This document shows positions 9,688 through 42,300 of a stretch of 49,387 nucleotides of DNA, in pieces. The stretch's first letter is position 1. Each line of letters opens with the position of its first letter. Source of the stretch: Planctomycetaceae bacterium. Lineage in GTDB: Bacteria > Planctomycetota > Planctomycetia > Pirellulales > UBA1268. The position numbers were made by a program, and so were the translations under genes. The notes under the pieces are model-generated. The model did no database searches, was not told the origin of the DNA, and saw only the letters and a program-made list of their open reading frames with translations. The stretch lies in NCBI GenBank assembly GCA_021300535.1, contig JAJTED010000006.1, positions 1 through 49,387 on the forward strand. The letters run 5' to 3'.

Positions 9688-9766
9688 ATGGCACGCGGGA
9701 AGGCATGCCACCCGGAGTCCCCCGGCTTCCGCCGGGGGCTTTTTGTGGGTGCGTTGTGCGTGTGCC
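9688..9766 (+). repeat. 79-bp direct repeat, copy 1 (palindromic element arm)
   Basis: This 79-bp unit recurs identically at 9917-9995. It contains a self-complementary core, CCCCCGGC-TTCC-GCCGGGGG, and forms the left arm of a larger inverted-repeat element whose right arm lies at about 9815-9850. Confidence 0.9.
9719..9744 (+). terminator. Intrinsic terminator for the glycosylase gene (repeat-borne)
   Basis: Perfect 8-bp GC stem (9719-9726 with 9731-9738), TTCC loop, then C and five T. It lies 59 bp after the glycosylase stop in the correct orientation. Confidence 0.75.
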
Positions 9767-9814
9767 TTTGAAAACAACGCCGGGCGATTCTCAGGGGTGC
9801 GTTGCGCGTGTGCC

Positions 9815-9850
9815 CAAGAAGCCCCGGGTGGAAACCCGGGGACTCCGGGT
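9815..9850 (-). repeat. Right arm of palindromic element, copy 1
   Basis: Stem 9822-9829 with 9834-9841, GGAA loop, followed by GACTCCGGGT. It is the imperfect reverse complement of the 9711-9744 arm. On the minus strand the stem is followed by CTTCTT, so it can also terminate minus-strand transcription. The flank after it (TATGAAAACC to CCATGCCGCAC) is shared with the copy near 13420. Confidence 0.8.
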
Positions 9851-9916
9851 ATGAAAACCACCCCGCTATCCATGCCGCACGACGGTCCGTGATGTTCCGG
9901 TTGAAACCTCCAGGAG

Positions 9917-9995
9917 ATGGCACGCGGGAAGGCATGCCACCCGGAGTCCCCCGGCTTCCGCCGGGGGCTTTTTGTGGGTGCGTTGTGCGTGTGCC
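9917..9995 (+). repeat. 79-bp direct repeat, copy 2
   Basis: Identical to 9688-9766, offset by 229 bp. It carries the same terminator-like hairpin at 9948-9973. Confidence 0.9.
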
Positions 9996-9996
9996 C

Positions 9997-10031
9997 AAGA
10001 AGCCCCGGGTGGAAACCCGGGGACTCCGGGC
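9997..10031 (-). terminator. Right arm of palindromic element copy 2; terminator for the SH3 gene
   Basis: Stem 10003-10010 with 10015-10022 and a GGAA loop. On the minus strand it is followed by CTTCTT. It lies 56 bp beyond the stop of the SH3-domain gene, in the right orientation to end that transcript. Confidence 0.6.
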
Positions 10032-13390: not shown

Positions 13391-13427
13391 CCAAAAAAGC
13401 CCCGGGCGGAAGCCCGGGGACTCCGGG
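13391..13427 (-). terminator. Intrinsic terminator of the nfeD-floA operon (repeat-borne)
   Basis: Stem CCCCGGGC (13398-13405) with GCCCGGGG (13410-13417) and a GGAA loop. On the minus strand it is followed by six T (13396-13391). It is one arm of the palindromic family at 9.7-10.0 kb, including the GACTCCGGGTATG flank, and lies 102 bp after floA. Confidence 0.8.
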
Positions 13428-13528
13428 TATGCAAGCCAATCCGTCATCCATGCCGCACGGCCGAAACCGCTTGTCTGGTTCCGGCGTGCATCGCTTGGCC
13501 GCTCCGTGTCTTTCAGCGTCGTCGCCCA

Positions 13529-20826: not shown

Positions 20827-21742
20827 ACGGCGGTCGCTCCTCGCGCCGCGGACCACGCGGCGGCTCGAAGGCCGGGCCGTCGCGCGGCGGTTCGCCGGTC
20901 CCTTCCGCCCGCGGCCACCGCGGCCGCAGATCCGGGCCGACCCGGGGCGGACGATCGCCGCCGCGGCCCTCGAACCGCGCGGCATACCAGTCGAGCCACT
21001 CGAGCCGTTTGTCCGTGCCGCGGGCGACGATGGCGGGACGGTCCTCGGGCCGCGCCGCCAGCAGCCACTGGTGCCAGGCGACCGCCGCTTCCCGCAACTC
21101 CGGCCGTGCCGGATCGACGAGTGACCGGGCCACGCTGTCGAGCGCCCGCCGCTCGGCCGTGGAGAGCCGCGCAAAACTCTCCGCCGCCCGTTCCAGTTCG
21201 ACCCGCTCCTCCACCGGCAGCGCCTGCACGGCGGCACGGCGGGCGGCCAGCCGATCGCCAGCCGGGTCGATGGCGAATGATGCGCGCAGCTCGGCCACGG
21301 CAGCCTCGAACTGCCGCTTCTCTTCGTCGCGCACCTCCGGACTCTTCCGCACCATGAGCCGTGGCGGCAGCGGGTACCGGCGCCGCTGCATCTCCTCGAG
21401 GAACTTCGTCGAACCGGCCTCCCGGAGCAGATCGAAGTGCTGCACGAGCGGCAGGTGTTCCAGGATCCGCAGATCCGGGTCGGGCGCGGTGAACCGGCCC
21501 GCCACGATGCCGGTAAACAATGCCGCTGCCACCGTCGCCGCGGGGCCGAGCCAGCGGACGATGTGGCGGCGGACGCCGCTCGGGCCTCGGGAGCCCCGAA
21601 CGCCGGCGACGGCCGCGAGTTCCACCGTCGTCGCCGCCAAGGTGGCGGAGGCCGTGGTGCGGGGGAGCGCGTCGAGCACGTCCCACATCGGCCCCAGGTC
21701 GGCGGCGGGAGAGCACGGGGAGTCCTCCTGCGGGGCGGTCAT
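20756..21742 (-). CDS. Membrane protein coupled to ECF sigma factor (putative anti-sigma factor)
   Basis: A 328-residue protein with one transmembrane helix, LGPAATVAAALFTGIVAGRF (about residues 68-87). It has a short N-terminal cytoplasmic part and a long charged external part ending in a Pro/Arg-rich tail (RPEGRPRPAF). The ATG at 21742 overlaps the sigma-factor TGA (ATGA). The topology and coupling fit an anti-sigma factor, but I do not see the zinc-binding HxxxCxxC motif of the common ASD class, so this role is inferred from context. The middle part (LSTAERRALDSVARSLVDP) resembles periplasmic helical DUF3106-type segments seen beside planctomycete sigma factors. Confidence 0.65.
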   Translation of the reverse strand: MTAPQEDSPCSPAADLGPMWDVLDALPRTTASATLAATTVELAAVAGVRGSRGPSGVRRHIVRWLGPAATVAAALFTGIVAGRFTAPDPDLRILEHLPLVQHFDLLREAGSTKFLEEMQRRRYPLPPRLMVRKSPEVRDEEKRQFEAAVAELRASFAIDPAGDRLAARRAAVQALPVEERVELERAAESFARLSTAERRALDSVARSLVDPARPELREAAVAWHQWLLAARPEDRPAIVARGTDKRLEWLDWYAARFEGRGGDRPPRVGPDLRPRWPRAEGTGEPPRDGPAFEPPRGPRREERPPFRPEGRPRPAFPEDAARTPAPPR

Positions 21743-22568: not shown

Positions 22569-22641
22569 TGGAGCGGAGGAGGATCGAACTCCCAACCTCG
22601 GCATTGCGAACGCCGCGCTCTCCCAGTTGAGCTACCGCCCC
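22569..22641 (-). tRNA. tRNA-Ala(CGC)
   Basis: A full cloverleaf can be drawn on the minus strand: acceptor GGGGCGG pairs with CCGCTCC (one G-U), the D arm is GCTC/GAGC, and the anticodon stem CGGCG/TGCCG encloses loop TTCGCAA with anticodon CGC (22608-22606). The T arm GGGAG-TTCGATC-CTCCT is followed by discriminator A. CCA is not encoded. It decodes GCG, fitting the GC-rich codon use. Confidence 0.95.
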
Positions 22642-22731: not shown

Positions 22732-25700
22732 ATGCACGTTCCCCCGATCGTCGTCAAAGGTGCCCGCGAGCACAACCTCCGCGACGTGACGGTGGGGCTG
22801 CCTCGCGGCCGCCTGGTCTGCCTGGCGGGCGTGAGCGGATCGGGCAAGTCGAGCCTGGCCTTCGACACCCTCTACGCCGAGGGGCAGCGGCGCTACGTCG
22901 AGAGCCTGTCGACGTTCGCCCGCCAGTTCCTCGGCCAACTGCCCCGGCCCGACGTGGACAGTGTGACGGGCCTGTCGCCCGCGATCTCCATCGCCCAGAA
23001 GTCGGCCGGCACCAATCCGCGGTCGACCGTGGCGACGATGACGGAGATCCATGACTTCCTCCGCGTGCTCTACGCCCGCGTGGGCACGGCCCATTGTCCG
23101 ACCTGCGACGCGGTGCTCGAGGCCCAGCCGCGGGACCAGATCGTGGAGCGGATCATCGCCGCCCGCGCGGGCCAGCCGGTGATGGTGCTCGCGCCGCTGG
23201 TCCGCGAAGCCAAGGGGGAGCATCGCGACCTGTTCACGGATCTCGTGCGACAGGGGTTCACGCGGGCCCGCGTCGACGGCGCCGTGTGTCGCGTCGAGGA
23301 TCCGCCCGCGTTGGAGAAGCAGCTCAAGCACACGATCGACGTCGTCGTGGACAGGCTCGTGCCCACCGAAGCCACCCGCAGCCGGCTGGCCGAGGCGGTG
23401 GAGCTCGCCCTCCGCACCGGCGGCGGCCAGGTGATCGTGGCGGCCGAACCGGCCCGCGAAGGCGGGCAGGCCGGCCGGAGGCCGGGTGAGGATGCCTCCG
23501 GTGGATCCAGCGCCGCCACTGCACCCTCAACCCGGCCCGCTTCCGGAAAGAGAGGGGGAGGCGGAGGAGATCTCGTGCTCTCGAGCCGTTACGCCTGCAC
23601 GGCGTGCGGCGTGAGCTACGACACCCCGGAGCCGCAGCTCTTCAGCTTCAACAGCCCGCAGGGTGCCTGCCCGGCCTGCGACGGCCTCGGCGACATCTAC
23701 GGCATCGATCCCGCGAAGCTCGTCACGGAGCCGGCCAAGACGCTCCGCAAGGGCGCGATCGGCGTGCTCGGCAGCTTCCGTGACATGCCGCGGTGGATGC
23801 GGCGGCTGTTGACGGGTGTGGCGGCGCACGCGGAGGCCAAGAAGAAACTCCCGCCCGGCACGCTCCTCGACACGCCGTGGCAGGAGCTGACGGCGGCGCA
23901 GAAGCGGATCTGGCTCGACGGCACCGGCCTGGAGGAGATCCAGCTCGCCTGGCGGCGCGGCCGGGCGGAGCGCGGCGCGAAGACGAAGTTCGAGGGCATC
24001 CGGGCCCTGCTGGCGAACCGGTGGCGCAACGCCAAGAGCGGCATCATGCGGCGGATGCTCGAAAAACTGATGAGCGTCACGCCCTGCCACGCCTGCCACG
24101 GCGCCCGGCTCTCGCCCCAGGCCCGGGCGGTGCGGATCACGACGGCCGTGAAGGGTTGGGGGCAAGGCACCATCGCCCCGGCCCTCTCCCCGAGGGCGAG
24201 GGAGAGAGGAACATCGAAGCCTCTCCCTCCGGGAGAGGCCGGCCGCAGGCCGGGTGAGGGTGCTTCGCCCGGCACCGAGCTCTCCCTCGACGCCCTGTGC
24301 AGCCTGCCCATCGCCGATGCGCGGGCGTTTCTCGCCGACCTCGCGCTCGACGGCACCCAGCGGGTGATCGCCGTCGAGCTGCTCAAGGAGATCAACGGCC
24401 GGCTCGCGTTCCTCGATCAGGTGGGGCTCGGTTACCTCGCCCTCGACCGTAAGGCTCCCACCCTCTCCGGCGGCGAGAGCCAGCGGATCCGGCTCGCCGC
24501 CCAGATCGGCTCCGGCCTGTCGGGGGTGCTGTACGTGCTTGATGAGCCGTCGATCGGCCTCCATCCCCGCGACAACGTCAAGCTCCTCGGCGCCCTCGAG
24601 GCCCTGCGGGACAAGGGCAACACGGTCGTCGTGGTCGAGCACGACGAAGACACGATCCGCGCCGCCGACTGGGTCGTCGACTTCGGTCCCGGGCCGGGCA
24701 AGCGCGGCGGCGAGGTGGTCGCCGCCGGCACGCCGGACGACGTGGCCCGCAGCCCGCGGAGCGTCACGGGGGCGTTCCTCGCGGGCCGCGACGGGATTCC
24801 GGTGCCGGCCGCGCGGCGCAAGCCGAATGGCAAGCAGCTCGTGCTCAAGGGGGTGCGGCACAACAACCTCAAGGGCGTCGACGTCGAGATTCCGCTCGGG
24901 CTGTTGGTGTGCGTGACGGGCGTGTCGGGGAGCGGCAAGAGCTCGCTCGTCGGCGACGTCCTCGAGCCCGAGCTGCGGCGGCTGTTGGGCAGCGAGGCGG
25001 CGATTCCCGGCGCGTTCGATTCGATCCACGGCGCCGACGCGCTCGACAAGGTGATCGTCATCGACCAGTCGCCGATCGGCCGCACGCCGCGGAGCAATCC
25101 CGCCACCTATGTGAAGGTCTGGGACGACATCCGTGATCTCTTCACGATGCTGCCCGAGGCGAAGAAGCGCGGCTGGAAGGCGGGCCGTTTCAGCTTCAAC
25201 GTCGCCGGCGGCCGCTGCGAGGCCTGTGAGGGCAACGGCTCGGTGCGGCTCGACATGGACTTCCTCGCCGACGTGTGGACGACCTGCGAGGTGTGCGGGG
25301 GCGCGCGGTTCGCGAAGGACACGCTGGAGGTCCGCTGGAAGGGGAAGAACGTCGCCGAGCTGCTGGCCATGGAGATCGGCGAGGCCCTGGAGCTGTTCGC
25401 CGAAGCCCCCGACATCGCCCGCAAGCTGCAGACGCTCCACGACGTGGGCCTCGACTATCTGCACCTCGGCCAGCCATCGCCCACGCTGTCCGGCGGCGAG
25501 GCCCAGCGGGTGAAGCTGTCCCGTGAGCTGGCCAGGCGATCGACGGGCCAGACGCTCTACATTCTCGACGAGCCGACGACGGGCCTGCACATGGCCGACG
25601 TGCGGCAGCTGCTGGCGGTGCTCGAGCGGCTGGTCGAGGCCGGCAACACCGTGCTCGTCGTGGAGCACAACCTCGACGTCGTGAAACGGGCCGACTGGGT

Positions 25701-28700
25701 GATCGACCTCGGACCGGAAGGGGGCGCGGGGGGCGGACGGATCGTGGCCGCCGGCACGCCCGAGCAGGTGGCGAAAGTGAAGGCATCGCACACGGCCCGG
25801 GCGCTGGCGCCGATCCTCGCCGCGGGGCGGGCCAAGGCACGGCCGGCCCGCAAGCCGGCGGTCCGCCGCAAGCCCGCCGCGGACCCGGCGGCGGCCGTTC
25901 GCGCGATGCTGGCCACGGTGACGAAGTCGTCACGCGATCCCGGCCCGCCGGCGATCACGATTCGCGGTGCGGCGCTCCACAACCTCAAACATGTCGACCT
26001 CGACGTGCCGCGCGGGGCGTTGACGGTGTGCTGCGGCCCCAGTGGCAGCGGCAAGACCTCGCTGGCCTTCGACACGCTCTACGCCGAGGGGCAGCGGCGG
26101 TACGTGGAGAGCCTGTCCCCTTACGCCCGGCAGTTCGTCGGCCAGGTGCCGAAGCCGCTGTTCGAGAAGATCGAGGGCCTCGCGCCCGCGGTGGCTATCG
26201 AGCAGCGTGGCGGCACCAGCACGCCGCGGTCGACCGTGGGCACGCTGACCGAGATGTACGACCACTTCCGCGTGCTCGCCGCGCGGCTGGGGACGATGCA
26301 CTGCCCTGCATGCGGCACGCCGGTGGGGGCGCAGAGCGTCGATCAGACGGTGGAGCGGCTGCTCGCGCACGGCGCCGACACCCGGCTGATGCTCCTCGCC
26401 CCAACCGAACTCAAGGTGGGCCAGACGCCCGAGGCCCTGTTCGCCGCGCTGCAGGCCGCCGGTCATGTCCGCGTGCGGATCGACGGCCGCACGGTGCGGC
26501 TCGACGACAAGCCCGTCGTCGATCGCAAGCGCAAGAGCCGGATCGAGATCGTCATCGACCGCGTCACCGCCGCCCCCGCCGATCGCAGCCGGCTCGCGCA
26601 GAGCGTGGAGGCTGGGTTCGCCGCGGGGAACGGCACGCTGCTCGTGGCCCGGGCGGTGGACGGTGTCGACGAGCCCGACTGGCCGGTGGAGGTGTACAGC
26701 CGCCGGCTCGCCTGCCCGACGTGCGGCCGGGGCTTCAAGCCGCTCGAGCCGCGGCAGTTCTCGTTCAACAGCCCGCTCGGCTGGTGTCCGAGCTGCGACG
26801 GCCTCGGCACCCGCACCGGCGTGGATCGCAAGGCCCTCGTCCGCGACCCGGCGCTTTCACTCGGCGATGGCGCGCTCGATCTGTGGCCGACGCTGCAGGG
26901 TCCGGCCGCCCGCCAGGTGGGCCGCCTGATGCTCGAGGCGCTCTGCCGAGCGACAGGGCTGCCGCTCGACGTGCCGCTGGCCGACCTCTCGGGGCTGCAG
27001 CAGCGGGTGCTCTTCGAGGGCACGGGTGAGAAGTGGATCGACGTGCCCGTTCCGTCCGGCGGGCCGCCGACGGGCAGGCACCCTCACCCCGGCCCTCTCC
27101 CAGAGGGAGAGGGAGAAGGGAAAAGTCTCCTAGCGCAACCGAACGAGGTCACCTCTCCGCGCCGCCAATCAAAAGGCGCGACACCCACCATCTCCCCTCT
27201 CCCTCTGGGAGAGGGTGGCCGAAGGCCGGGTGAGGGTGCCCCCAAGGATTCCATGGACACGCAACCCGTGGCGGTTTCTGCCGCAAGAAGCCCCGGACGG
27301 AAGCCCGGGGACTCCGGGTCGCCTCCGAGCCCGGTGTGGTTCTCCTTCCAGTTCCAGGGCCTGGAGGCCGCCTGCGAGGAGGCGGCCCGGCTGGTCGCGG
27401 CCCTGCGCGGCAAAGTCGACGCGGTCATGGATGAGGTGCCGTGCAGCGAATGCGGCGGCAGCCGGCTGGCCGACGTCGCCGCCGCCGTCACGCTCTGGGG
27501 TCGGCCGCTCGACGTCTGGTGCCGGATGCCGCTGGGGCGGCTGCAGCGGGAGCTGGCGGCGGTGGAACTCGCGGCCGACGAGAAGAAGATCGCCGGCGAC
27601 CTGCTCCGCGAGCTCACCAATCGGACGGCCTTCCTCGTCGACGTGGGCCTCGACTATCTCGACCTGGCCCGGCCGGCGGGCAGCCTCTCCGGCGGTGAAC
27701 TGCAGCGGATTCGCCTCGCCGCCCAGGTGGGCAGCGGGCTGACCGGCGTGCTCTACGTGCTCGACGAGCCGACGATCGGCCTGCATCCGCGCGACACCCA
27801 TCGGCTCGTCGCGGCGCTGGGGAAGCTCCGCGACCTCGGCAACACGGTGGTCGTGGTCGAGCACGATCGCGATGTGGTGGCGGCGGCCGATGAGGCGGTC
27901 GACTTCGGTCCCGGCAGCGGCCGCGACGGGGGCACGATCGTGGCCCATGGCCCCCCCGCGAAGCTGGCCGGGATGAAGACGAGCGTCACCGGTCCGTATC
28001 TGGCGGACAAGCGGGCCTGCGACGCGGTGCTCGCGCGGAAGAAGGCGCTCGGCCGCCGCGAGCCGGCCGGCTGGATCGAGGTCCGCGGCATCGCCCACCG
28101 CACCCTGCGCGGCCTCGACGTGCGGTTTCCGCTGGGAGTGCTGGCGGCGGTCACGGGCCCCAGCGGCAGCGGCAAGACGTCGCTGGTGCTCGAGGTGCTG
28201 TGGCGGGCGGCGGCCCGGCGGCTGCACGCGGCCCGCGAGCAGCCGGGGCGGCACGCGGCCGTGAAGGGGCTGGAGGCGATCGATCGTGTGATCCTCGTGG
28301 ACCAGGAGGCGATCGGCGTGACGCCGGGCTCCACGCCGGCCACGTACACCGGCGTCTTCGATCACATCCGCCAGCTGTTCGCCAACGTGCCCGAGTCCCG
28401 CACCCGCGGGTTCATGCCGCGGACGTTCTCCTTCAACGTCGCCGGCGGCCGCTGCGAGGCTTGCGAGGGTCTCGGGCAACGGCGGGTGGAGATGCACTTC
28501 CTGCCGGACGTTTGGGTGGAGTGCGAGGCCTGCAAGGGCCGCCGCTACTCCGCCGAAACGCTCCACGCCAAGTGGCACGGGAAGAGCATCGCCGACGTGC
28601 TGGAGATGAGCGTCGCCGACGCCGCGGCGTTCTTCGCGCCGGTGCCGCCGATCGCGCGGATCCTGTCCACGCTGGTGGACGTCGGCCTCGGCTACGTGAC

Positions 28701-29211
28701 GCTCGGTCAGCCGGCCCCCCAGCTCTCCGGCGGCGAGGCGCAGCGGGTGAAACTCTCCCGCGAGCTCGCCAAGCCGGGCACCGGCAGCACCCTCTACATC
28801 CTCGACGAGCCGACGACGGGCCTCCACTTCGCCGACATCGAGAAGCTTCTCCACGTGCTCGAGCGGCTGGTGGACGCGGGCAACACGGTGCTCGTTGTCG
28901 AGCACAACCTGGAGGTCATCGAGGCCGCCGACTGGGTGCTCGACATGGGTCCCGAGGCGGGCGCCGGTGGCGGTCGGATCGTGGTCGAGGGGCCCCCGGA
29001 GGATCTCGTGATCCACGCCCGCCGCTGGCGGCAGCAGGAGGCCGGCGGCGGCACCGGCGACCTGCTGCGGAGCCACACCGGCGAGGCGCTGGAGGCGTTC
29101 CGCGCCGCGGCGGCGGCTACCAGCGGGCCTCCAGGCCCGTCGTCACGCCGTGCAGGAGCACGCTCCCGTTCGTGTCCAGCCGGGCCGTCGACGGGGGGTT
29201 CGCGAGGTTGA
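22732..29211 (+). CDS. uvrA: Double-length excinuclease ABC subunit UvrA (two fused UvrA units)
   Basis: DNA-damage sensor ATPase of nucleotide excision repair, which loads UvrB at lesions. The 2,159-residue product contains two UvrA units (about 1-1018 and 1075-2140), against about 940 residues for one normal UvrA. Four Walker A motifs (GVSGSGKSS at about 33 and 729; GPSGSGKTS at about 1101 and 1808) and four ABC signatures (LSGGESQ, LSGGEAQ, LSGGELQ, LSGGEAQ) are present. The zinc-finger CxxC pairs are intact (CTACG/CPACDG, CEACEG/CEVCGG, CPTCGR/CPSCDG, CEACEG/CEACKG). Fused UvrA of this kind is known in Chlamydia. Three low-complexity inserts at about 245-280, 479-511 and 1443-1533 are translated palindromic repeats. 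The ATG at 22732 is chosen because the upstream frame crosses tRNA-Ala. Its last 95 bp overlap the convergent BBP7 gene. Confidence 0.95.
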   Translation: MHVPPIVVKGAREHNLRDVTVGLPRGRLVCLAGVSGSGKSSLAFDTLYAEGQRRYVESLSTFARQFLGQLPRPDVDSVTGLSPAISIAQKSAGTNPRSTVATMTEIHDFLRVLYARVGTAHCPTCDAVLEAQPRDQIVERIIAARAGQPVMVLAPLVREAKGEHRDLFTDLVRQGFTRARVDGAVCRVEDPPALEKQLKHTIDVVVDRLVPTEATRSRLAEAVELALRTGGGQVIVAAEPAREGGQAGRRPGEDASGGSSAATAPSTRPASGKRGGGGGDLVLSSRYACTACGVSYDTPEPQLFSFNSPQGACPACDGLGDIYGIDPAKLVTEPAKTLRKGAIGVLGSFRDMPRWMRRLLTGVAAHAEAKKKLPPGTLLDTPWQELTAAQKRIWLDGTGLEEIQLAWRRGRAERGAKTKFEGIRALLANRWRNAKSGIMRRMLEKLMSVTPCHACHGARLSPQARAVRITTAVKGWGQGTIAPALSPRARERGTSKPLPPGEAGRRPGEGASPGTELSLDALCSLPIADARAFLADLALDGTQRVIAVELLKEINGRLAFLDQVGLGYLALDRKAPTLSGGESQRIRLAAQIGSGLSGVLYVLDEPSIGLHPRDNVKLLGALEALRDKGNTVVVVEHDEDTIRAADWVVDFGPGPGKRGGEVVAAGTPDDVARSPRSVTGAFLAGRDGIPVPAARRKPNGKQLVLKGVRHNNLKGVDVEIPLGLLVCVTGVSGSGKSSLVGDVLEPELRRLLGSEAAIPGAFDSIHGADALDKVIVIDQSPIGRTPRSNPATYVKVWDDIRDLFTMLPEAKKRGWKAGRFSFNVAGGRCEACEGNGSVRLDMDFLADVWTTCEVCGGARFAKDTLEVRWKGKNVAELLAMEIGEALELFAEAPDIARKLQTLHDVGLDYLHLGQPSPTLSGGEAQRVKLSRELARRSTGQTLYILDEPTTGLHMADVRQLLAVLERLVEAGNTVLVVEHNLDVVKRADWVIDLGPEGGAGGGRIVAAGTPEQVAKVKASHTARALAPILAAGRAKARPARKPAVRRKPAADPAAAVRAMLATVTKSSRDPGPPAITIRGAALHNLKHVDLDVPRGALTVCCGPSGSGKTSLAFDTLYAEGQRRYVESLSPYARQFVGQVPKPLFEKIEGLAPAVAIEQRGGTSTPRSTVGTLTEMYDHFRVLAARLGTMHCPACGTPVGAQSVDQTVERLLAHGADTRLMLLAPTELKVGQTPEALFAALQAAGHVRVRIDGRTVRLDDKPVVDRKRKSRIEIVIDRVTAAPADRSRLAQSVEAGFAAGNGTLLVARAVDGVDEPDWPVEVYSRRLACPTCGRGFKPLEPRQFSFNSPLGWCPSCDGLGTRTGVDRKALVRDPALSLGDGALDLWPTLQGPAARQVGRLMLEALCRATGLPLDVPLADLSGLQQRVLFEGTGEKWIDVPVPSGGPPTGRHPHPGPLPEGEGEGKSLLAQPNEVTSPRRQSKGATPTISPLPLGEGGRRPGEGAPKDSMDTQPVAVSAARSPGRKPGDSGSPPSPVWFSFQFQGLEAACEEAARLVAALRGKVDAVMDEVPCSECGGSRLADVAAAVTLWGRPLDVWCRMPLGRLQRELAAVELAADEKKIAGDLLRELTNRTAFLVDVGLDYLDLARPAGSLSGGELQRIRLAAQVGSGLTGVLYVLDEPTIGLHPRDTHRLVAALGKLRDLGNTVVVVEHDRDVVAAADEAVDFGPGSGRDGGTIVAHGPPAKLAGMKTSVTGPYLADKRACDAVLARKKALGRREPAGWIEVRGIAHRTLRGLDVRFPLGVLAAVTGPSGSGKTSLVLEVLWRAAARRLHAAREQPGRHAAVKGLEAIDRVILVDQEAIGVTPGSTPATYTGVFDHIRQLFANVPESRTRGFMPRTFSFNVAGGRCEACEGLGQRRVEMHFLPDVWVECEACKGRRYSAETLHAKWHGKSIADVLEMSVADAAAFFAPVPPIARILSTLVDVGLGYVTLGQPAPQLSGGEAQRVKLSRELAKPGTGSTLYILDEPTTGLHFADIEKLLHVLERLVDAGNTVLVVEHNLEVIEAADWVLDMGPEAGAGGGRIVVEGPPEDLVIHARRWRQQEAGGGTGDLLRSHTGEALEAFRAAAAATSGPPGPSSRRAGARSRSCPAGPSTGGSRG
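23464..23570. repeat. Palindromic repeat ends inserted in frame in uvrA (insert 1)
   Basis: GGCCGGGTGAGGATGCC (right end of the element) followed by GCACCCTCAACCCGGCCC (left end). It is translated as a Gly/Arg/Pro/Ser-rich linker just before the first zinc finger of UvrA unit 1. The ends are related to those of the copies at 24166 and 27077 but arranged right-end then left-end. Confidence 0.7.
24166..24263. repeat. Palindromic repeat inserted in frame in uvrA (insert 2)
   Basis: A 98-bp element with imperfect terminal inverted repeats (GGCACCATCGCCCCGGCC at left, GGCCGGGTGAGGGTGC at right) and inner arms CCTCTCCC and GGGAGAGG. It is translated in the loop between LSPQARAVRITTAVKGW and LSLDALCSLP. 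Confidence 0.8.
27077..27240. repeat. MITE-like palindromic repeat inserted in frame in uvrA (insert 3)
   Basis: A 164-bp element with perfect 13-bp terminal inverted repeats, GGCACCCTCACCC (27077-27089) and GGGTGAGGGTGCC (27228-27240). Matching inner arms CTCTCCCAGAGGGAGAGGG and their complement flank a unique centre of about 65 bp. It is read through in frame in the second UvrA unit. Confidence 0.85.
27285..27318. repeat. Terminator-type palindromic arm inside uvrA
   Basis: The same family as the arms near 9822, 10003 and 13398: AAGAAGCCCCGG, a GGAA centre, then CCCGGGGACTCCGGG. It is translated as RSPGRKPGDSG. Its T-tract lies on the minus strand only, so it should not stop uvrA transcription. 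Confidence 0.8.
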
Positions 29212-30727: not shown

Positions 30728-33335
30728 TCAGAAGGGCCGGATCAGGGCCGAGGCGGCCGACCACGGACCCAGGCCGGCGGCGTTTTGTGCCGCCACCCTG
30801 AAGCGATAGCCGAGGCGGCTCGTCAGCGTCGTAATCCGCGCCGTCGTCGCGTTGCCGACGGCCAGCGGCAGGGTCACCCACTTCGCGGTCGACGTGTTGG
30901 CCCGATATTGGATCACGTAGCCCGTCACGGGCGCCGCCGTCGAGGACGGCGCCGCCACCCAGTTGAGCGTGATCGCGCCCGCCGCACCCCGGCCGGTGAC
31001 GGCGGTCGGTGCCGCCACGGGGACCGCCACGGGCGTGAGGCCGAGGGTGCCAGACGTGAACACGCCCACCCCGTCGGCGTTCACCGCAGCCACCCGGAAC
31101 AGGTACCGCGTGCCGTTCACAAGCCCGGTCACGGAGCCGATCGTCGCCGCAGACACGCCATCTGCGAACGTCGTCCATGCCGAGCCCGCGACGTTCGTCC
31201 GGAACTGGATCACGTAGTCAGTGATCGGTTTCGACGAGGCGGCGGCGGTCCACGCCAGGTTCACCCGTCCGCTTCCGACCGTGCCCGTGAGGCCGGTCGG
31301 AGCCGCCGCCTGGATGAACGGCACCACCGGGCCAGCCTGCACGGTGGTCGAGTTGCCGGCCGCGTTCTGGGCCCTGACGCGGACGTAGTACGTCACGCCG
31401 TTCGTCAGCCCGGTGATCGTCGCCGACGTCGCCGTCGATACGCCATCCCCGAAGTCTACGAACCCGCTGGTCGAATTCGTGCTCACGCTGATCAGGTAGT
31501 CGGTGATCGGCACGCCACCGGTGGTCGCGGGCGCGGTCCAGGAGACGTTGATACGGCCGTTGGCGCCCGTGGCCTGGACGTTGCTTACCGGCCCGGGCAC
31601 GGTCCGGGGTGTCACCGACGCCGATTCGATCGCGGTTCCCGTCCCGGCCACGTTCACCGCCGCCACGCGGAACATGTAGGCGGTGCCGTTCGTCAGGCCC
31701 GTCACGGTGGCCGACGTCGCTGTCGACGTGCCGTCGGCGACCGTCGTCCACGTCGCGGCCGCCGTCGTCTTGAATTGCACGACGTAATCCGTGATCGCCG
31801 CACCGCCGTCGGAGGTGGGCTGGTTCCAGGAGAGCGCGACCTGGCCGTTCTGCGGCGTGCCCACGAGATCGGTCGGCATCCCCGGCACCGTCCGCGGGGT
31901 CAGCGGCCCGGCCTCGGTCGAGGCGGCGCCGGTGCCGACGGAGTTCACCGCCTTGACACGGAACAGGTAGGCGGTGCCGTTGGTCAAGCCCGTGAACGTC
32001 GCCGAAGTGACCGCCGACGTACCGTCGGCGAACGTCGTCCACGATGAGCCGACCACGGCGGTCCGGTACTCCACGACATAGTCGGTGATCACGGCACCGT
32101 TGGCCGCCGGGGCCGTCCAGGTGACCGCCACCTGCGCGTTGCCCGGCACGCCCGCGAGCCCGGTCGGCGCCGAGGGCACGGCCCGCGGCGTCTCGGTCAC
32201 CTCGTTCGAATAGGCACCGCTGCCGACGCTGTTCACGGCGGCCACGCGGAACAGGTAGGCGGTGCCGTTGGTCAGGCCCGTCACCGTCGCCGACGTCGCC
32301 GTCGAGGTGCCATCGGTGAACGCGCTCCAGGTCGCGGCCGCCACCGTCTTGTATTCCACTGCGTAGTCGACGATCGCCGCGCCGCCGTTCGAAGCCGGGG
32401 CCGTCCAAGCGAGCGTCACGGAGCCGTCACCGAACGTGGGCGTCAGGCCAGTCGGCGCCGAGGCCGGCATCGCCGGCGTGTACGGCCCGGCCTGGCTGGA
32501 GGAGGCACCCGTTCCGACCAAGTTCACCGCCGACACCCTGAACAGGTAGTCGGTGCCGTTCGTCAGGCCTGTCACGGTCGCCGCGATCGCCGTCGACACG
32601 CCGTCGGTGAACGTGCTCCAGGTCGCGGCGGCGGTCGTCTTGTACTCGATGACGTAGTCGGTGACCGCGGACCCGTTGGCGACGGCTGCCGTCCAACTGA
32701 GCATGACCTGCGAATTCCCGGCGACGCCCGCCAGCCCCGTCGGTGCCGAGGGCACGGCCCGCGGTGTCTCCGTCACCTCGCTCGAGTACGTTCCCGTGCC
32801 GACGCCGTTGACGGCCGCCACGCGGAACCGGTAGGCGGTGCCGTTTGTAAGCCCGGTGACAGTCGCCGTCAGCCCGGTGCCGACACCGTCGGCGAAGGTC
32901 ATCCACGACGATCCGATGACGTCGGTCCGGTACTCGACCACGTAGTCCGTGATCGGCGTTCCGCCGTCCGAACCGGGGGCCGTCCAGGCCAGCCCAACAG
33001 AACCGTCACCGAACGTCGGCGTCAGATTCGTCGGCGCCGAGGCGGGCGCGGAGGGCGTGACCGGTGCCGACTCGGCGGAGAAGTCACCGGTCCCGGCGGC
33101 GTTTACCGCCGCCACGCGGAACACGTATGCCGTGCCGTTGGTGAGCCCCGTGACCGTGGCCGCCAACGTCGCACTGGGGCCATCGGCGAACGTGCTCCAC
33201 GTCGCGGCCGCGGTCGTCTTGTACTGTATCACGTAGTCCGTGACGCCGAACGCGTTGGCCGGGGCCGTCCAGGCGAGGCTCACCTGGCCGTCACCGGGCG
33301 TGCCGGCGACGCCGGTCGGCGCCGACGGCACGTCG
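30728..33335 (-). repeat. Nine tandem fibronectin type III domains in the giant protein
   Basis: Units of about 95 residues (about 285 bp) with APTGL starts, AWTAP cores, DYVI-YKT strands and VTGLTNGTAYLFRVAAVN. Units 2-3 and 4-5 look like a duplicated pair: TPTFGDGSV units followed by PRAVPSAPTGLAGV units. Confidence 0.85.
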
Positions 33336-36300
33336 ACGAGCAGCACCCGGAACGTCGTCGTACCGTCGATGTTGTTGTTGAGGAGCAGGTTGTTCGCCAG
33401 GTCGGTGAGATAGCCGTCCTGGGTACTCGTCGCTGGCCGCGTGGTCGCACGGATCTCGTACTCGCCGAGCGTGAACGCCGAAGGCGACTCGAACACCACT
33501 CGGTTCGTGCTCTCCAGGTACCGGAAGACGTAGTCCACCCCCTCCGTCAACGTCGTTCCGTTGCGAAGGACCGTGAACGCCTGCTTGACGACCGTGGTCT
33601 TGTCGATCCCCACGCCGACGTCGTTGATTTGGAGGATGAACTTCGCCATCCCGGAGCCGGCCGGCCCCGTAAGCGTGACGGCATTGAGCGTGGCATCGGC
33701 GTCCTGCGATCCCTGGTCGAGCGGATCGGCCAGCGTCAGCCAGGGCTGTGTGAAGTCCACCCGGTCGATCGCGCCGAGGTCCTTGAAGACGTTGCTGCCG
33801 AGGCCCGGGCGGGTCTCCTGGCCGGGGTCGTCAGACCGCAACTGCCCGAACAGGTCGCGACTCGGGACGATGATCGGGGACACCGGCAGGCCGAGTGGCT
33901 GGGTCACGGCGACGGAGGCGGGCCGATCCTGGAGCACGTCCAAGGCGCCGTCGATGATCTCGGCCTTGGCGGCCGGATAGAAGTTTCCGCGGGCGGCGTT
34001 CACGAACGGGTCGGACGTCAGCGTGACCGCATTCTCTCCCGCCACACCCGCTGACGTCGTGTTGTGGAACGCCGAGAAACCGACCACGGTGCTCGCGGAG
34101 CTGCCGTCGACCTGGATGCCCGTCGCCAGGCTCGCGAACACGTTGTTGAGCAGCGTCGGCGAGGCGTTGTCGGTCACCTGCACGCCCACCGTGCGGAAGG
34201 CGAAGGTCAGCGCGACGCCGGTCCCAGCCGCCGTGGCGGCATGCGTGAGCGTGACCTGGGTCGGCGAGTCGATCGACAAGATCCGGGTGTCAGCCGGAAT
34301 ACCGGTGCCGGTGACAACCATGCCGGCCCACAGCTGGGCGGTAGTCGGCACCGCGACCACCGGCGAGGCGGCGACCAGCGCGGCCGAGGCCGTCACCGGC
34401 ACACCGCCATGGATCGTGTTGTTGACGATCCGGCCGTAGGGCACCGGTGCGGCAAGGCCGCTAATCGGATCGCCGCTAAAGAGAATCCCGGCCTCGCCCT
34501 GAGTGCTCGCGATCACGTTGTTGGTCACGACCACGCCGGGCACGAGTCGGCCGGCGTTCACCACCGGCGTGTTCTTCACGACGCCCATGGTGCTCGTGCC
34601 GGTGGCCGCGTCGCGGGCTGCGGCATCGATGCGGATGCCGTACTGGTCGGCATGCGTGATGACGTTGCCGTCGATGATGAACTGCCCCTGCCCACGGGGC
34701 GTATTCTCGTCGCCACGCAGGTTCTGCCCCGGCGTCACGCCGTTCAAGTAGACAAGAGGGTCGGCAGACGGGTGGGGGTTGCCCCTGACGAGGGGCGATT
34801 CCGTGTCCACGGTCCTGAAAATCTGCACCGCCCCGGCGAGTTTGCTCGTGAGACCGCCGTATTCCATGCCGCGGCGAATCTCCAACTGGTACGCCCCCTG
34901 CAGGTTCTGCTGCGGCGTCGTGACGGAGACGGGTGTTCCGATCGTGAACATCGAGGTGTCGGCCGTCGCGCCGGTCACCATCTCCCCGTGCTCGGCGAAG
35001 CCGACGATGAAGTCGTCGACGTACATCCCCCTGGAGACACCGCCGATCGCGATGGGGTTGAACAGGAACCGCAGTTGGACGTCGTTTTCCCCAGCGAACT
35101 CTCCAAGGTCGATTCGCGCCTGCCGCCAGCCGGTGTTCTGGAACAGCTCCTGCACCAGTTGGTTGGGCTGCTGGCCGATGCGGGATGACACGGAGGGGAA
35201 CGCGGGCAGCGGCTGGTTGTCGTCATCGAGGTTTGATCGAAGGCCGTCGTTGCTGGCGATCGTGATCCACTCCCCGCCACCGTCGACCGAGGCCTGGACC
35301 TCCGCGCTGCCGGCCCCGGCATCGATCAAGTAGTTGAAGTACAGGGTCGGCTTGTCGGTGTAGTCGTAGCCCTCGAGGCTGAACGAGTTCGTCCGGATCG
35401 CGATCCCCTCGCCGGTGAAGACGAGATCGGTCGGTGGGCCGTCCTCCGGCGTGGTGGCGGTCGCAGCTCTGTTCAGCGTGACGACCTGCCCGTCGATCGC
35501 CGTGATGATCGTGTTCGGAGGGATTCCGGGCCCCGACACGCTCATGCCGACCTTGAGCTGGCCGGCCTGCGAAACCCGCAAGTCCCTACTGTCGAGTGTC
35601 GTGAAGCTGGGCAGCGTCACCCGACCCGCACCCTTCACCGGCAGGTTGGCGACCTCGCTACCAAAGTTGCTGATGAGGTCGCTGAGCCACTGCGACCCGT
35701 TTGGACCGAGATGGAGATGCCGGAGGACCGTGCCGGGCGTGCCGGGGGGCGTGCCGTCCAGGGCCGTGCCCCCACTGCCGTCGAGCCCGTAGTAGATGCT
35801 CGTCAGGCCCTGCGACTCTGGCGGCGTGGATTCGTCGTAGTCGAAGAGCCCGTCCCGCGTCCGGTCCGGAGCAACGGTCACGCCATGGCCGGTTTCGCCG
35901 CCGCGATTGTTCGTCGCCCGCCAGAGCGGAATATCGAGCGGCGAGAAGGCGAAGCCCGTGAAGACGCCCGGTGCTTCCGGGTCGCCCTTGAACGACCTCG
36001 ACTCCGTGTTGTTGTCGAACACATTGAGCCGGTTCCCGTTGGCGTCGATGCAATACAGCCAGCCATCGCGATCGAGCGCGAACAGCTTGTCGGCGAAGAA
36101 GCCGGGTGTCAGGGGGTCCGAGGGGCTGGACCTGCCGGCAACGTTCTGCGGGCCGTTGGCCAGCGCCTGGAGGTTGGGGATGCCGAGGTCGCGCACGACC
36201 GTCGCCACGGCCGTGAGGGGGTTGATCGTGAACAGGAAGCCGTTGGTGTCCACGCCATAGAGCGTGTTGCCAATGAACGCCATTCCCGTGGTCAGGCCGA

Positions 36301-39300
36301 GATCGTTGCCGGCGTTCTGGATGACCCCGGTTCCGCGGCGGCCAAAGGGTGCAGCCCCGGTCGCATCCCCGGTCACGGGGTTCGCCCGGTAGAGCCTGGA
36401 CTGTCCGGTCTCGGCTCCAGTGGTAAAGTTGACGTCACGGACCGAGTAATAAAGCTCCCTGCCGGCCGCGCCGCGACCCCAGGCCAGCGCATCGACCCTG
36501 TCGGTCGTGACCATGTTCGGTGCGGGCGGATTGGGGTTGAACGTGTAGGTCACCGTGGTCATGCTCACGCCGGAAAGCAGGACGTTGGCCCCCGAGCCAT
36601 TGTCCGTCCATGTCACCGTGACGAGGCCGGCGGCATTCACGGTGCTGCTCACACCGCTGGCCGGAAGGGGCATGGTTGCGGGCACGCCGAACACCGGAGT
36701 GAACGTCAACTGGCCTGTCGCATTCGACGTGAATGTCCACGTTCCCGTGCTCGGCAGCGGGTTGTTCGGAAGCGTGACCGTGTACTGCAGCGTGCCCGAC
36801 ACTCCCGCCAGGTCCACCGTGCTCGTGGCGGAGGGATGGGCATCGAGTTGAAATGGCGTCGTCGTGTCAAACAACTTGGCGGACGTCAGGGTGGCCACCG
36901 GATCGGTGACCTTCGTGGGCGCTTTGAACGGCGGGTAGTCGGGGATGTTGTCGTTGCCGACGACTGTGACCGCGTTGGTGCGGATGTCGATCGAGCGGAG
37001 CGTGCCGGCGGTGTTCGTGCCGCCTGGGACGCCGGCATACGTGTAGAGCCGGCCGTCAGACCGCATGGCCAGGTCGTCAGCGGCAAAGCCGGCCGTGGCC
37101 GCCGTGCCCGAGAGATAGGTCACCACATCGTCGAGCGTGAACGGCGCGACCTGCGACTCCAGGGTGGGCAGGGAAAACAGCGGCCCACGGGTTGGCGCGA
37201 CATAGGTGTAGTCGTCGACGTCATTGCCGGTGACGAACTCACCTGAATGATATCCCTGCAAGCCAATGCGATCCTCCACCACCCGCGCGACGGAGTTGAC
37301 AGGCTCGAGGCGGACGAGCGTGTTCGTCGCCGCAGATTTGAAGGTCATGTCGAGCTGGGCCGGCAGTTGCTCGTTCGACGACACCGCCACGTAGTAGCGG
37401 GTGGTCTCCGTCGCGACGGCATTCGGGCCGGCGGGGGGCGTCACACCACCCTCGCCGACGCTCGAGCCGGGAAGGCCGGTCGGGAGGTGCACCGGACCGA
37501 TGAACGGATCGAGCTTGCCGGCCGAACCGCGCGACACGTCCTCGAAGTTGGTCTGCCCGTCCCCTGGCTGATCGTCGGCGACGTTCGAGTCTCGGCCGAC
37601 GTAGATCAGTCGCCCGCTGGAATCGAACACCGAGAGCGTGAGGTCGCCGCGAAACCCGTCCGCGTAGTCGATGTCGAACACCGTGGCCCAGGTCTTAAGG
37701 CCGTTGTTGACCCCGCCGATGGCCTGGATCTGCTCGTAGTTCAGGTCGAGCACGTACCAGTCGACGTCGGATGCCGATGAGATCGCCCCGGCCACCGAGA
37801 TCGTGTTCAGGTCGGAGGTGAGGAGATTGCCCACGTACTGGGCCTTGCCGAACGTGTCGTTGTCGCTGGCCGCCGGCTGGGTGGCCGCGAACGACCAGTT
37901 GATGATCTCCTGCCGCTGCGAGCCGGTGCTGCCGGAGGCCGCGGTCAGCCCGACGTAGGCCAAGCCCTGCGTCAAATTGAGGGCGGTAGCGAGATTGACG
38001 GCGACCGACACCCGCGGCGTCGACATGTCGTCGAGGAACACCGACAGCGTCGTGCCATCGTAACGCACGACGACGTCGTGCACGGCACCGTCCGACAGGT
38101 TCGGAATCGCCGCCACGGCCGTCCGGGCCAGCGACGTCCCGGCGAGGATGGGCGAAGTGGGTGTCCGCAGCCGAATGTCGATCTGATTGTCGTTGCCGGC
38201 CAGGTCGTCGGCTTCGGGCTCGGCGTTGAAGGCGGTGTCGAACTCGACGGCGAGGAAACTGCCGATTCCCCGGTAGCCGAGGCCGGAGCCGGCGCTGCCC
38301 AGCTCGCTGGTGCCGAGATTCTGGATCACGAACGCCAGACCGTCGGCGCCCGCGGCCACCAGATCGCCGATGCGGAAGCGGAACCGCGACTCGAAGCCGG
38401 TGCTGACCGCATACGGCTGCCCGCTCCACACCGCCGAGGCGCCGGCCGTGCCGCTCGCCGTCATCGCGAGCCGCCCGCCCACGACATTCACCGGACCGTT
38501 GGTCCGGAGGCCGCTCGCGTTGGTGAAATTCGGATACTCGAACACCGACCGGCTGCCCTCGCCGATCGTGCCGGTGAGGGGCGATCCCTGCGGCAGTCCC
38601 TGCACGTCGACGCCCACCACGGGATAGCGGATGTCGGCGTAGCGGACCGTCGAGCCGGGCTTCTCGTCCCGCTGCTTAAGGCGAATCCGCAGTTCGTAGC
38701 TGCCGCTGGTCGCGCCGCTGCCGGCCACCGCTGGATCCTGCCGCAGCAGCCCTTCGTAGGCGGACAACGCGGCGTTCGCCGCGACCTTCGGCTGGCTGCG
38801 GACCCGGATGGAATACTGCAGGGGCTCGTCTCCCGTCACGCCCGGCAGCACCACCCGCATGCCCGGATCACGCGGGTTCTGCGAATAGAAGTCCAGCCCC
38901 AGGGCCAGGTTCTTGATGAGCGGCGCGCCGATGCCGAGGGTCGCCGCCGTGAGGCTCCCGTCCCGCTGCCAGTCGGCCGAACGGGCGAGCACTGCGCCGG
39001 AAGAGTCGAGCAGTTCGACCATCGCGTCGAGCGCGGGGCTCGTGTTGTCGATGTCGATCCACACCTCGGAGCCTGCGTAGCCGCCGAAGCTGTAGACGTC
39101 GACGTCGGTCGGATCGTCGACGGCGATCGTGCCGTGGACTTCGAAGCCCAGCCGGCGGTTGTCGTCGCCGCCGAGTTCGTTCGGGGCGAGGACGCCGAGG
39201 TACTGGGCCACGTCCGGCGTCAGGTTGACGTCCACGCCCCCGGTCACCGCCGGCTCGGACTCGCGGAACACGGCGACGTTGCGGTCGTTCGAATAGGGGA

Positions 39301-42300
39301 GGAACCGCAGCCCTCGCCACTCGCCGGCCGTCGGCCGCGATGCCGAGCTGTCGCCGTTGGTGTCGGTGACGGTGACACCGATCGGATCAATGCTCGCGCC
39401 CACGGTGTCGTCGGCGAGCGCCGTGAGGATCACCGGATAGCCGGGCTGGCCGATGACCTGCACGGTGCCGCCGATCCGGTCGTCTATGTCGAGGCCATAC
39501 CCGCTGGCCGTGAAGCCCGCGTCCTCGCCGCGAAGCTTGACCACGAGGCTCGCGGTCGGGCTGCTCATCAGCCTCAGCCCGGTGGCCGTGTGGAAGTTGG
39601 AGACGACGATCTCGTTTCGCAGGACGTGGACGATGTCGGTGTCGTCCCAGACGCTCTCGACCGTGATCGTGTCGCCGCGGACGACCATCCCGGTGACGCC
39701 GCCGGCAGTCACGGTATTGCCCCGGACGAGCGGCCCGCGGTTGCCGTCATACTGCGCTAACCGGCCGCTGCCACCGGTCATCCGCCCGGGATCGGCCACC
39801 TCTCGGCTGTTCAGCGAGTTGGCATCGACGCTGATCAGGTCGCCGCCATTGCTGCGGAAGTCGTTGCGGACGATCACCGGCTGGGCACCGGTCACGAGGA
39901 TGCCGCTGGCGTTGTTCTCCACCCGGCTGTTGGCCAGCCGCAGCGTTCCCTGATCGACGGAGAGGGTGTTGGCCGTGGCGAACCCTCCGGCCACGGGCGT
40001 CTGGCCGCCGCCGTAGCTGATCACGGCGTTGTCGACCGATGCCGCGGCGGCGTCGTTGACGATGATGCCGCCCCAGTCTCCGGCGAGCGGCACGTTGCCG
40101 GTGCCGCCGGTGACGACGAACGTGCCGCCGGCGCCGAAACGGTTGTCTTTGGTGCTGGTGAAGATCACCCGCTTCTGCGGCGTGCCTTCGGCGTAGAGCT
40201 GCGCGTTGCCCCGCTCGAGCTCGATCCGCGAGCCCTGCAGCTTGACCACGACGCCAGGATCGATCGTGAGACGGCCGCTGGCCCGGGCCATCCGCGTACC
40301 CGTCTCGAACATCAGCGTGACGGGTGAACCGGATGCCGTGGCGGCCGCCGACAGCGTGATCGTGTTGTTCGTCGCGTCGATGCCCGAGATTGTCGTGCCA
40401 CTGGGCACGCCGGGGCCGCTCACCAGCATGCCTGCCGCGAGTCCGCTGACATTGGCCAGTTGGCTGACCGTCAGGCTGCCGGCGACAAGGCGTCCGTTGC
40501 GCTGGAGGACGGTCTCGTAGCCACCGACGCCCCCGGCGACGAAGAGGTTCTCGGGGATGACGTAGGTGATGTCAGGGCTCGCGAACCGCGCCGCCACGCT
40601 CAGCCGGTCGATCGGCTGGCCGAAGGCGGTGCGAATCCTGACGAGCAGGCCGTTGACCGAGTTGTCCCGAACGGTATTGCCGCGGATCGCCGGTCCGGCA
40701 CGGCCGTTGCTCTCCTCGAAACTATTCGGGTCGGCGGAGATCGCGGCGCCGGCACTGTTCCGCACGTCGTTGAAGGCGATCGTCGGCCGCGACGATTCGA
40801 GGTGCAGCGGCGCGATTACCTGCTGGATGCCGTCGATCACGACCTGGCCGCCGCCGTAGCGGACGGTGGCGTTAGTCACGCTGTTGAGAAACACCCGCCT
40901 CGTCGCCGAGTCGGAGTCTTGCCGGAAGATGATGCCCCCCCACTGCCCGCCGGCAACGGCCGGCCCGACGCCGTCGGAGTTCCCCCCGATGGAGTCGTCG
41001 TGGTAGGAGGTGAATTGCACGCGGCTTTCGGGCGTGCCGAGCACCTGGAGCGCCGCCCCGGCACGCGACACGATCGGCGACGAGCTGCCGACGTCGATGA
41101 CCTGATTGCGGAACTTGAACACCGCCCCCGCGTCGATCATCACCGTCACGCCCCGGGGGACGGTGAACGAGGTGCCGTCGGCGAGCGGCTGATTGAGAGA
41201 ATTGGTTCCCACGAGGTAGGGCGTCGCCGCGGCATTCCCGACGATCCGGACGATCGACTTGCCGCTGCTGGCGGCAGTGAGGCCGGCCGCCACCGTGTTG
41301 TATGGCTTGGCGAGTGACCCGTCGGCTCCGACCGCAGGGGCCAACTTGTCCACGTAGACCGTGTTGCCATCGGTCGAACCGCGGAACCAGAAGTTGAATG
41401 CACCGCCGGCAAGGCCGTCGCGGTCGCCATCGAGAGGCCTGCCCGTCGCGTCGACGATCGTGTTGGAGCTCTCGCCCGCCGGCGTGAACGACATCCGCAG
41501 CCGGTATGCTCCGTCGCTCCGCCCATTCGCGCCGCTGTTCTCCACCTCCGGGTTGAAGGCGGTGTTCCCGGTGCTCGTCACTGCGAGATAGTAGGTGTAG
41601 GGATCGCCGGAGCCGTTGGTCGCCTCGAGATCGAGCCCAAGAAAGGAATCGCGGCCGAAAGAGTCGTCGTTGCGGGCGACCAGCTCGCGCCGTCCGGTGG
41701 CCGGATCCTGGCGATAGAGCGTGAGCACGCTGTCGAGCAGGCTCGTGACAGGCTGGCCGGGTCGCGCCACGACGGTCTCGGCCGCCAGCGTGCCGCGCGT
41801 GTCGACCCGGAACGAATAGACGTCGATGTCGGTGCCGTTGGCGGGGTAGAGCACGGAGAGGTGAACGAGGTCGTGATCGCCCGGCTGAACCGTCGATCCC
41901 TGCGCGCCCATGATCGACGGGATGTCGTACGAATGGCCGAGCCCAAGCGAATGGGCGATCTCGTGCATCGCGACCCCCTGCCAGAGGCCGCCATACTCGC
42001 CCTGTCCCCAGTCGAGTGAGCCGTTCATGATCGACATCGTCGGTCCACCGAGTCCGGCAGGGCCGTTGGGCACGGGAATGTTCGGGTCGAGGACCCGGAG
42101 GTCGCCGGTCACGACGGCCAGGCCCGAGTTCAACGTCTCCACGAAGCGGATGCCGGTCGCCCGCGAGTAGAGTTCGAAGATCTCCCGGGCCCGCTGCTTT
42201 TGGTTCTCCGTGATCGCGTTGATCAGCGGGTTGCCCTGGGCGTCGGTTCCGTAGATCCGCGGGAAGCAGTACTCCTTCACCGCAGCCGGTTCGGCTCCCG

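Follow-up and report, generated by a model that had tools for sequence, protein, structure and literature searches.

Hairpin repeats read in frame within bacterial genes have been described before: in a 2013 report (Di Nocera et al., PMC3733652), many in-frame REPs lie in DNA-repair genes, among them the two uvrA genes of Opitutus terrae, each with double REP insertions, and the uvrA of Thioalkalivibrio, with two REP dimers, so in-frame palindromes in uvrA are already known. The same paper describes the terminal inverted repeats (TIR) of TIRYT tyrosine transposases and the Rickettsia palindromic elements (RPE), palindromes read in frame within protein genes. Another class is the PIT/TM 'intrastrand triplex' element, reported from Enterobacteria and from more than 260 bacterial genomes; its representative TM_ECO, according to Holder et al. 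2015 (PMC4666352), has 23 copies in MG1655, pairs A and B types in inverted orientation, is always intergenic in E. coli K-12 and has a link to genome instability.

Here we analyzed a window of 49,387 nucleotides, positions 1 to 49,387 of contig JAJTED010000006.1 from a Planctomycetaceae bacterium (host genome G000), in which a double uvrA gene carries four segments, each a copy of a palindromic repeat that is dispersed in the genome and each read in frame. By profile match they are assigned to two families, F1 (segments I1 to I3) and F2 (I4), and they resemble the intragenic GTAG/CGTC REPs of PMC3733652 in being in-frame hairpins, often dimers, in DNA-repair genes including uvrA and at more than one site per gene. 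Unlike GTAG REPs, the F1 A arm, the F1 B arm and the F2 consensus have no GTAG tag at the hairpin foot, and the uvrA cases given in that text come from other phyla and other families than F1 and F2. The TIR motif GGGGWSAS is fitted by F1 B (GGGGTGAG) and one F2 variant (GGGGACAC), and the F2 form GGGGACTC and F3 (GGGGACGG), a further family, are one position off. As with the TIRYT repeats described in that source, copies of F2, of F3 type and resembling a fourth family, F4, adjoin Y1 transposase ORFs; F2 units stand on both sides of a Y1 gene, the arrangement of REPtrons and TIRtrons, whereas F1 had no transposase neighbor. The original prediction had likened the inserts to RPE and placed them in one unrelated repeat family. 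In behavior the likeness holds, the host and the repeat being different and the two set apart here by description rather than sequence, but this uvrA holds two families, of which F1 is already known as PIT/TM.

The assignment of F1 to the PIT/TM type is made by its B arm, in which 32 of 34 nt are identical to TM_ECO no. 1/4 (PMC4666352, Table 1), and by a GGGTGAGGG tail behind a hairpin CCCTCTCCC..GGGAGAGGG; a triplex would be putative. As in PIT/TM, an A-type arm is paired with a B-type arm in inverted orientation, but the F1 A arm has an additional CCGGCCG.AGGCCGG hairpin in place of the TTA linker, and F1 copies occur within genes. The B arm, nearly identical between planctomycete and E. 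coli, matched 4546 of 5426 E. coli genomes (E up to 10), 4478 of them at a query coverage of at least 80%, and the best 12 matches had 95-97% identity over 39-40 nt with no annotated feature beneath. The F1 copies within proteins extend in-frame colonization by bacterial hairpin repeats to the PIT/TM class. We found no report of PIT/TM elements within proteins and no mention of the insert peptides in the open-licence literature; such protein-borne copies, and the recurrence of four families in the same UvrA loops of related genomes, seem to be new.

Four repeat-derived segments in a double UvrA

The uvrA reading frame is uninterrupted along its whole length and encodes a 2159-aa tandem-fused UvrA (NCBIfam UvrA, 2406 bits against a cut-off of 1147; Pfam UvrA also matched), both copies of which can be aligned to UvrA structures. 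We scored it with profiles trained on 43 F1 arms and 47 F2 units, all from outside the window; the A/B labels of these arms are rough, since 11 of the 31 filed as 'A' are B-type, which bears on the type label and not on detection. Reversed uvrA sequences, used as control, reached a top score of 7.0 bits.

Table 1. Repeat units and the double uvrA gene in the window (scores from the profile of the family named).
Feature	Position	Strand	Score (bits)	Remarks
Double uvrA	22732..29211	+		copy 1 about 22732-25953; copy 2 25954-29208
I1, degenerate F1 dimer	23468..23560	+		site 1, directly past UvrA interaction domain; tails inward
I1 A arm	23468-23495	+	19.3	F1 profile
I1 B arm	23521-23560	-	27.9	F1 profile
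I2, F1 dimer	24167..24263	+		site 2; tails outward
I2 B arm	24167-24209	-	34.3	F1 profile
I2 A arm	24220-24263	+	46.5	F1 profile
I3, F1 pair	27077..27240	+		site 3, copy 2; tails outward
I3 B arm	27078-27120	-	50.0	F1 profile
I3 A arm	27196-27239	+	47.9	F1 profile
I4, lone F2 unit	27284..27319	+	37.6	F2 profile; read as ARSPGRKPGDSGS
F2 cluster of four units	9710..10030		41.8-45.5	9710-9746 -, 9814-9850 +, 9939-9975 -, 9995-10030 +
F2 unit	13394..13428	+	40.5	at margin of called minus-strand ORF

These scores, together with dispersed copies throughout the genome, bear out the prediction that the in-frame inserts are mobile DNA palindromes, and the search for further copies returned 46 exact F1 tails and 677 F2 units. 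Some details changed. Two inserts had been credited with GGCACC..CCC/GGG..GGTGC terminal inverted repeats, which in I3 are perfect over 13 bp and in I2 imperfect, and the supposed terminator-type arm at 27285-27318 is instead the F2 unit I4. The middle of I3 (27121-27195), between both F1 arms, matched none of the repeat families recognized here.

Folded as single-stranded DNA, I3 (z = -8.5) and I2 (z = -3.8) stood out, and I1 (z = -0.07) and I4 (z = -0.8) were unremarkable; the latter two are identified through sequence rather than fold. A consensus fold of ten F1 dimers gives no support for a conserved RNA structure, because no base pair had changes on both sides. AlphaFold2 models, built with 32 aligned sequences for copy 1 and 31 for copy 2 (mean pLDDT 82.2 and 80.5), fell below pLDDT 50 over more than 10 residues solely at 243-278 (I1) and 479-512 (I2) in copy 1, and at 370-458 (I3 and I4) and the C-terminal tail in copy 2. 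The predicted strands flanking these loops are 233-238/281-284 for I1, 467-471/516-518 for I2 and 361-366/461-466 for I3 and I4. I1 to I4 are thus modeled as low-confidence loops between strands, in agreement with the surface-loop position between conserved parts that had been proposed, and in the alignment the loop length at sites 1-3 varies among relatives too.

Distribution of the families and their transposase neighbors

The F1 A arm reads CCTCTCCC-N-GGGAGAGG-CCGGCCGNAGGCCGGGTGAGGGTGC and the B arm CCCTCTCCC-N-GGGAGAGGG-CCGGGGTGAGGGTGC. The exact matches of the F1 tail GGGTGAGGGTGC are spread over the 4.01 Mb host genome, and at up to one mismatch there are 101, against 37 for the reversed pattern. 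Among 28 fetched loci we found 19 inverted pairs with tails inward, 18 of them A+B by eye and one (L115) with an arm too diverged for typing; I1 has this inward layout, and the tails point outward in I2, I3 and L103. Amplification is lineage-specific: of 146 genomes from the order, 9 have the A-arm pattern (22 copies in the host, 8 in G051, 7 in G046, 5 in G123, 0-2 in the rest), and across six congeners of the host it was present as one copy in one and absent from five.

F2 (AAGAAGCCCCGGGNGGNANCCCGGGGACNCC) is more numerous, its host copies being counted at up to two mismatches against 0 for the reversed pattern. Across 18 genomes it is abundant only in the host and in G100 (113 copies), with 0-2 elsewhere and 0-1 in six congeners of the host. 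The single Y1_Tnp ORF recognized in the host assembly (L009 1330-1827; Pfam 27 bits, cut-off 23; NCBIfam IS200 26.5 bits, under the cut-off of 55) has F2 units on both sides, at 1044-1135 and 1862-2026. F3 (AAATGGGGACGGGACTGATTTTT and its complement) counts 31 copies in G100, 2 in G143, 1 in G076 and 0 in the other 15 of 18 genomes. A Y1 match in G076 (L187 1501-1839) is bracketed by inverted F3-like copies at distances of 329 bp and 77 bp, and in G100 one F3 copy adjoins a Y1 match; on the other side of that match the contig runs out in GGAAATTCA, the first letters of an inverted copy. F4 (AAGCCCGAGGCGYGAGCCGAGRGGATGCC) matched with zero mismatches at uvrA site 3 of G132 and G069 (L156 579-607 and L166 3249-3277, both minus strand), F4-like copies with 2-3 mismatches occupy seven places around, and on both sides of, the Y1 ORF of G069 (L195), and one copy at two mismatches occurs in the host (L105); the reversed F4 pattern had 0 matches in the sequences compared. 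F2, F3 and F4 are therefore all adjacent to transposases.

For F1 we sought a mover and found none: no F1 match lay beside the Y1 ORF of the host, and of 24 Y1 loci scanned for neighboring F1, G077 (L179) was the only one with F1-like arms. Since the sole recognized Y1 ORF of the assembly, which is 86% complete, is flanked by F2 and not F1, we infer the mobility of F1 from its distribution alone. At L179 the F1-like arms form 74-nt direct repeats (990-1063 and 2074-2147), 95% alike, that enclose about 1 kb with a Y1 transposase and lie outside that transposase's own inverted repeats.

We then counted F1 copies in genes over 33 loci, comprising 30 outside uvrA with the exact 12-nt tail plus I1-I3 and leaving out loci with only a diverged tail (e.g., C134:3640). 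Ten of the 33 overlap coding sequence, a depletion relative to the 0.85 of sequence called coding by a simple gene finder on 297 kb (p about 2e-12); in the same 297 kb, 52 of 55 F2 copies were outside called genes. Five of the ten F1 copies lie within proteins, three in uvrA and the others in a short-chain dehydrogenase and a TauE/SafE transporter. In the dehydrogenase, F1 makes up residues 126-152 and is absent from both PDB alignments shown, which are aligned up to 123-125 and again from 153-155; 304 residues of the transporter match 236 profile positions. The remaining cases are terminal and may be end effects of ORF calling: an F1 dimer in the N-terminal region of a cysteine desulfurase (L100 2920-4590, minus strand), a B arm that seems part of the N-terminus of the protein at L117 4094-4939 (minus strand), ahead of a pilin-type methylation motif, and C-terminal copies in an acyl-carrier-like protein, an LpxI-like protein and a phosphofructokinase. 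The five A arms read in sense (I1, I2, I3, dehydrogenase, cysteine desulfurase) all share one frame, giving GRRPGEG or a near variant. F1 is not unusually open to translation, a possibility that we ruled out: 15 intergenic F1 dimers had 3.87 of 6 frames open against 3.70 in other intergenic 110-bp stretches, and shuffled sequences had 3.10. A crude frame test over 30 A-arm-pattern loci, 24 of them from other genomes, gave no in-gene copy; with a codon model trained on the host only, this speaks weakly against F1 in the proteins of other genomes.

Translation by eye placed one further candidate, L090 5887, between two genes, and we excluded it from the coding count. The desulfurase at L100 resembles encapsulin cargo (NF041166, 728 bits, under the cut-off of 800), and the probable acyl carrier protein at L113 4708-4998 terminates in an F1 arm whose tail TGA is the stop codon.

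The same UvrA loops in related genomes

UvrA was found in 17 of 18 genomes of the host's own family, the host included (G112 had no match). Of 18 UvrA stretches fetched, 17 gave a UvrA frame (L172 gave none), and with four further relatives added the alignment was usable at site 1 in 18 relatives and at sites 2 and 3 in 19 each. As anticipated, F1 was absent at site 2 and at site 3 from all 19 relatives usable there. In the UvrA tree G132 is the sister of the window, with 89.5% identity over the 1559 columns common to both, and G082 branches next. The UvrA of G132 is without I1-I4, so I2-I4 are younger than the split from that genome. At site 1, G082 has a decayed F1 pair in the layout of I1, the best arms scoring a weak 10.5 and 7.9 bits; I1 may therefore predate the G132 split, in which case it is older and was lost in G132, or else it had two separate origins.

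Beyond F4 at site 3 of G132 and G069, other repeats occupy these loops. In G100, which belongs to a different genus, site 2 holds an F2 unit (35.3 bits, E 1.7e-9) and site 1 an in-frame F3 palindrome (L164 about 1590-1672). The near relative of G100, L012, has F3 in frame at site 1, from 1688, and no F2 at site 2; compared with G100, both arms are altered together (GAGCGA for GACTGA), which would fit either conversion by a second copy or an independent insertion. At site 1 of G143 there is an F3-like palindrome resembling the two dispersed pattern copies of that genome. Genome-wide copy counts indicate that the loops are occupied, in the case of F1, F2 and F3, by the family amplified in the genome concerned, G143 with its two copies being an exception in number. 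Four repeat families have thus repeatedly used the same UvrA loops in related genomes, largely tracking which family multiplied, and in 13 of the other relatives, with full or partial loops, these profiles and patterns recognized no repeat; at least ten had none at any site. The series G000, G082, G132, G100, L012, G143 and G069, with the same loops carrying four families or no recognized repeat, allows insertion bias to be weighed against tolerance, and the clustering of REPs in repair genes, as noted in PMC3733652, becomes a question countable across genomes.

Two weak signals were discarded: a decayed F2 at site 3 of G100 (5.9 bits) is not claimed, and an F1 match in G007 (10.7 bits) lies away from sites 1-3. 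The records L011 and L012, titled Candidatus Kuenenia stuttgartiensis, encode a double UvrA with 77-80% identity to the window in the best segment, and the label may be wrong.

Origin of the inserts and competing readings

We favor, with a probability of about 85%, insertion of non-autonomous hairpin elements, amplified in this lineage and tolerated in loops. F1, as PIT/TM-type A/B pairs, and F2, whose units also flank a Y1/HUH transposase ORF, would have spread mostly into intergenic DNA, probably copied by transposases. The few copies that land in genes would for the most part be removed by selection, and those retained would be in frame and placed in a length-variable loop flanked by two beta strands, where they are presumably translated as Gly/Pro/Arg/Glu-rich linkers. 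Offering several such loops (sites 1-3), uvrA would gather whichever family is active. Because the loops have diverged, neither a target-site duplication nor the exact junctions of the uvrA inserts could be delimited.

Two doubts concern whether the repeats are genuine. Ordinary low-complexity protein linkers, palindromic by chance, have a parallel in the Lys/Ala/Pro-rich linkers without detected repeats that L010 and L011 carry at the same sites, but the reversed control reaches 7 bits where the F2 unit scores 38 and the stronger arm of each F1 insert 28-50, and the dispersed copies are intergenic. That reading is already refuted for I2-I4, and with I1 standing on 19-28 bits and its arm layout we regard it as practically negligible overall. 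Misjoining of repeats into uvrA during assembly is also very improbable: assemblies break at repeats, and that of the host is fragmented into 197 contigs and 86% complete, but the frame is preserved through every insert, the elements measure at most about 165 bp, and these loops carry other repeats in independent genomes (G100, L012, G132, G069), with a decayed copy in G082. Co-option of the inserts, as mRNA hairpins or protein linkers that tune UvrA expression or contacts, would agree with the strong folding retained in I2 and I3 and with the frame shared by the five sense A arms. Against it, I1 is decayed and its fold lost, loop lengths and sequences vary freely among relatives, and the shared frame can be explained as a filter for a hydrophilic linker, which leaves co-option improbable.

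The original prediction had left it between a gene that tolerates inserts and a hot spot; tolerance in length-variable loops is supported, and a hot spot is suggested by the clustering. If uvrA were a preferred target, with the machinery or replication/repair intermediates steering hairpins there beyond tolerance, one would point to the three of five internal F1 inserts in this gene (under uniform placement about 7e-8 for uvrA and 8e-6 for any gene), to different families at the same sites in relatives (site 1 with F3 in G100, L012 and G143, site 2 with F2 in G100, site 3 with F4 in G132 and G069), and to the REP insertions in Opitutus and Thioalkalivibrio uvrA reported in PMC3733652. The clustering figures, however, assume five independent inserts and a coding fraction of 0.85, and they were computed for a gene chosen beforehand for its inserts; F1 copies also occur in unrelated genes, 13 of the other relatives, with full or partial loops, have no repeat that these profiles and patterns recognize, and uniform insertion with survival in length-tolerant loops alone predicts the same pattern. 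Preferential insertion into uvrA, although suggested by the clustering, is in our view rather unlikely. It is likewise doubtful that UvrA is a general landing site, its same few loops being hit repeatedly in unrelated bacteria by unrelated families, each the one active in its genome, through steering or because hairpin-laden uvrA is favored; in the latter case, repair-gene expression could, for example, be coupled to how much hairpin DNA UvrABC encounters.

Around the double uvrA, a tRNA-Ala (cgc) gene lies just upstream on the opposite strand (22569-22641), with tRNA-Arg at 16430 and tRNA-Pro at 21557. Downstream, the minus-strand ORF at 30728-43774 encodes 4348 aa with a C-terminal run of repeats that by eye resemble fibronectin type III domains.
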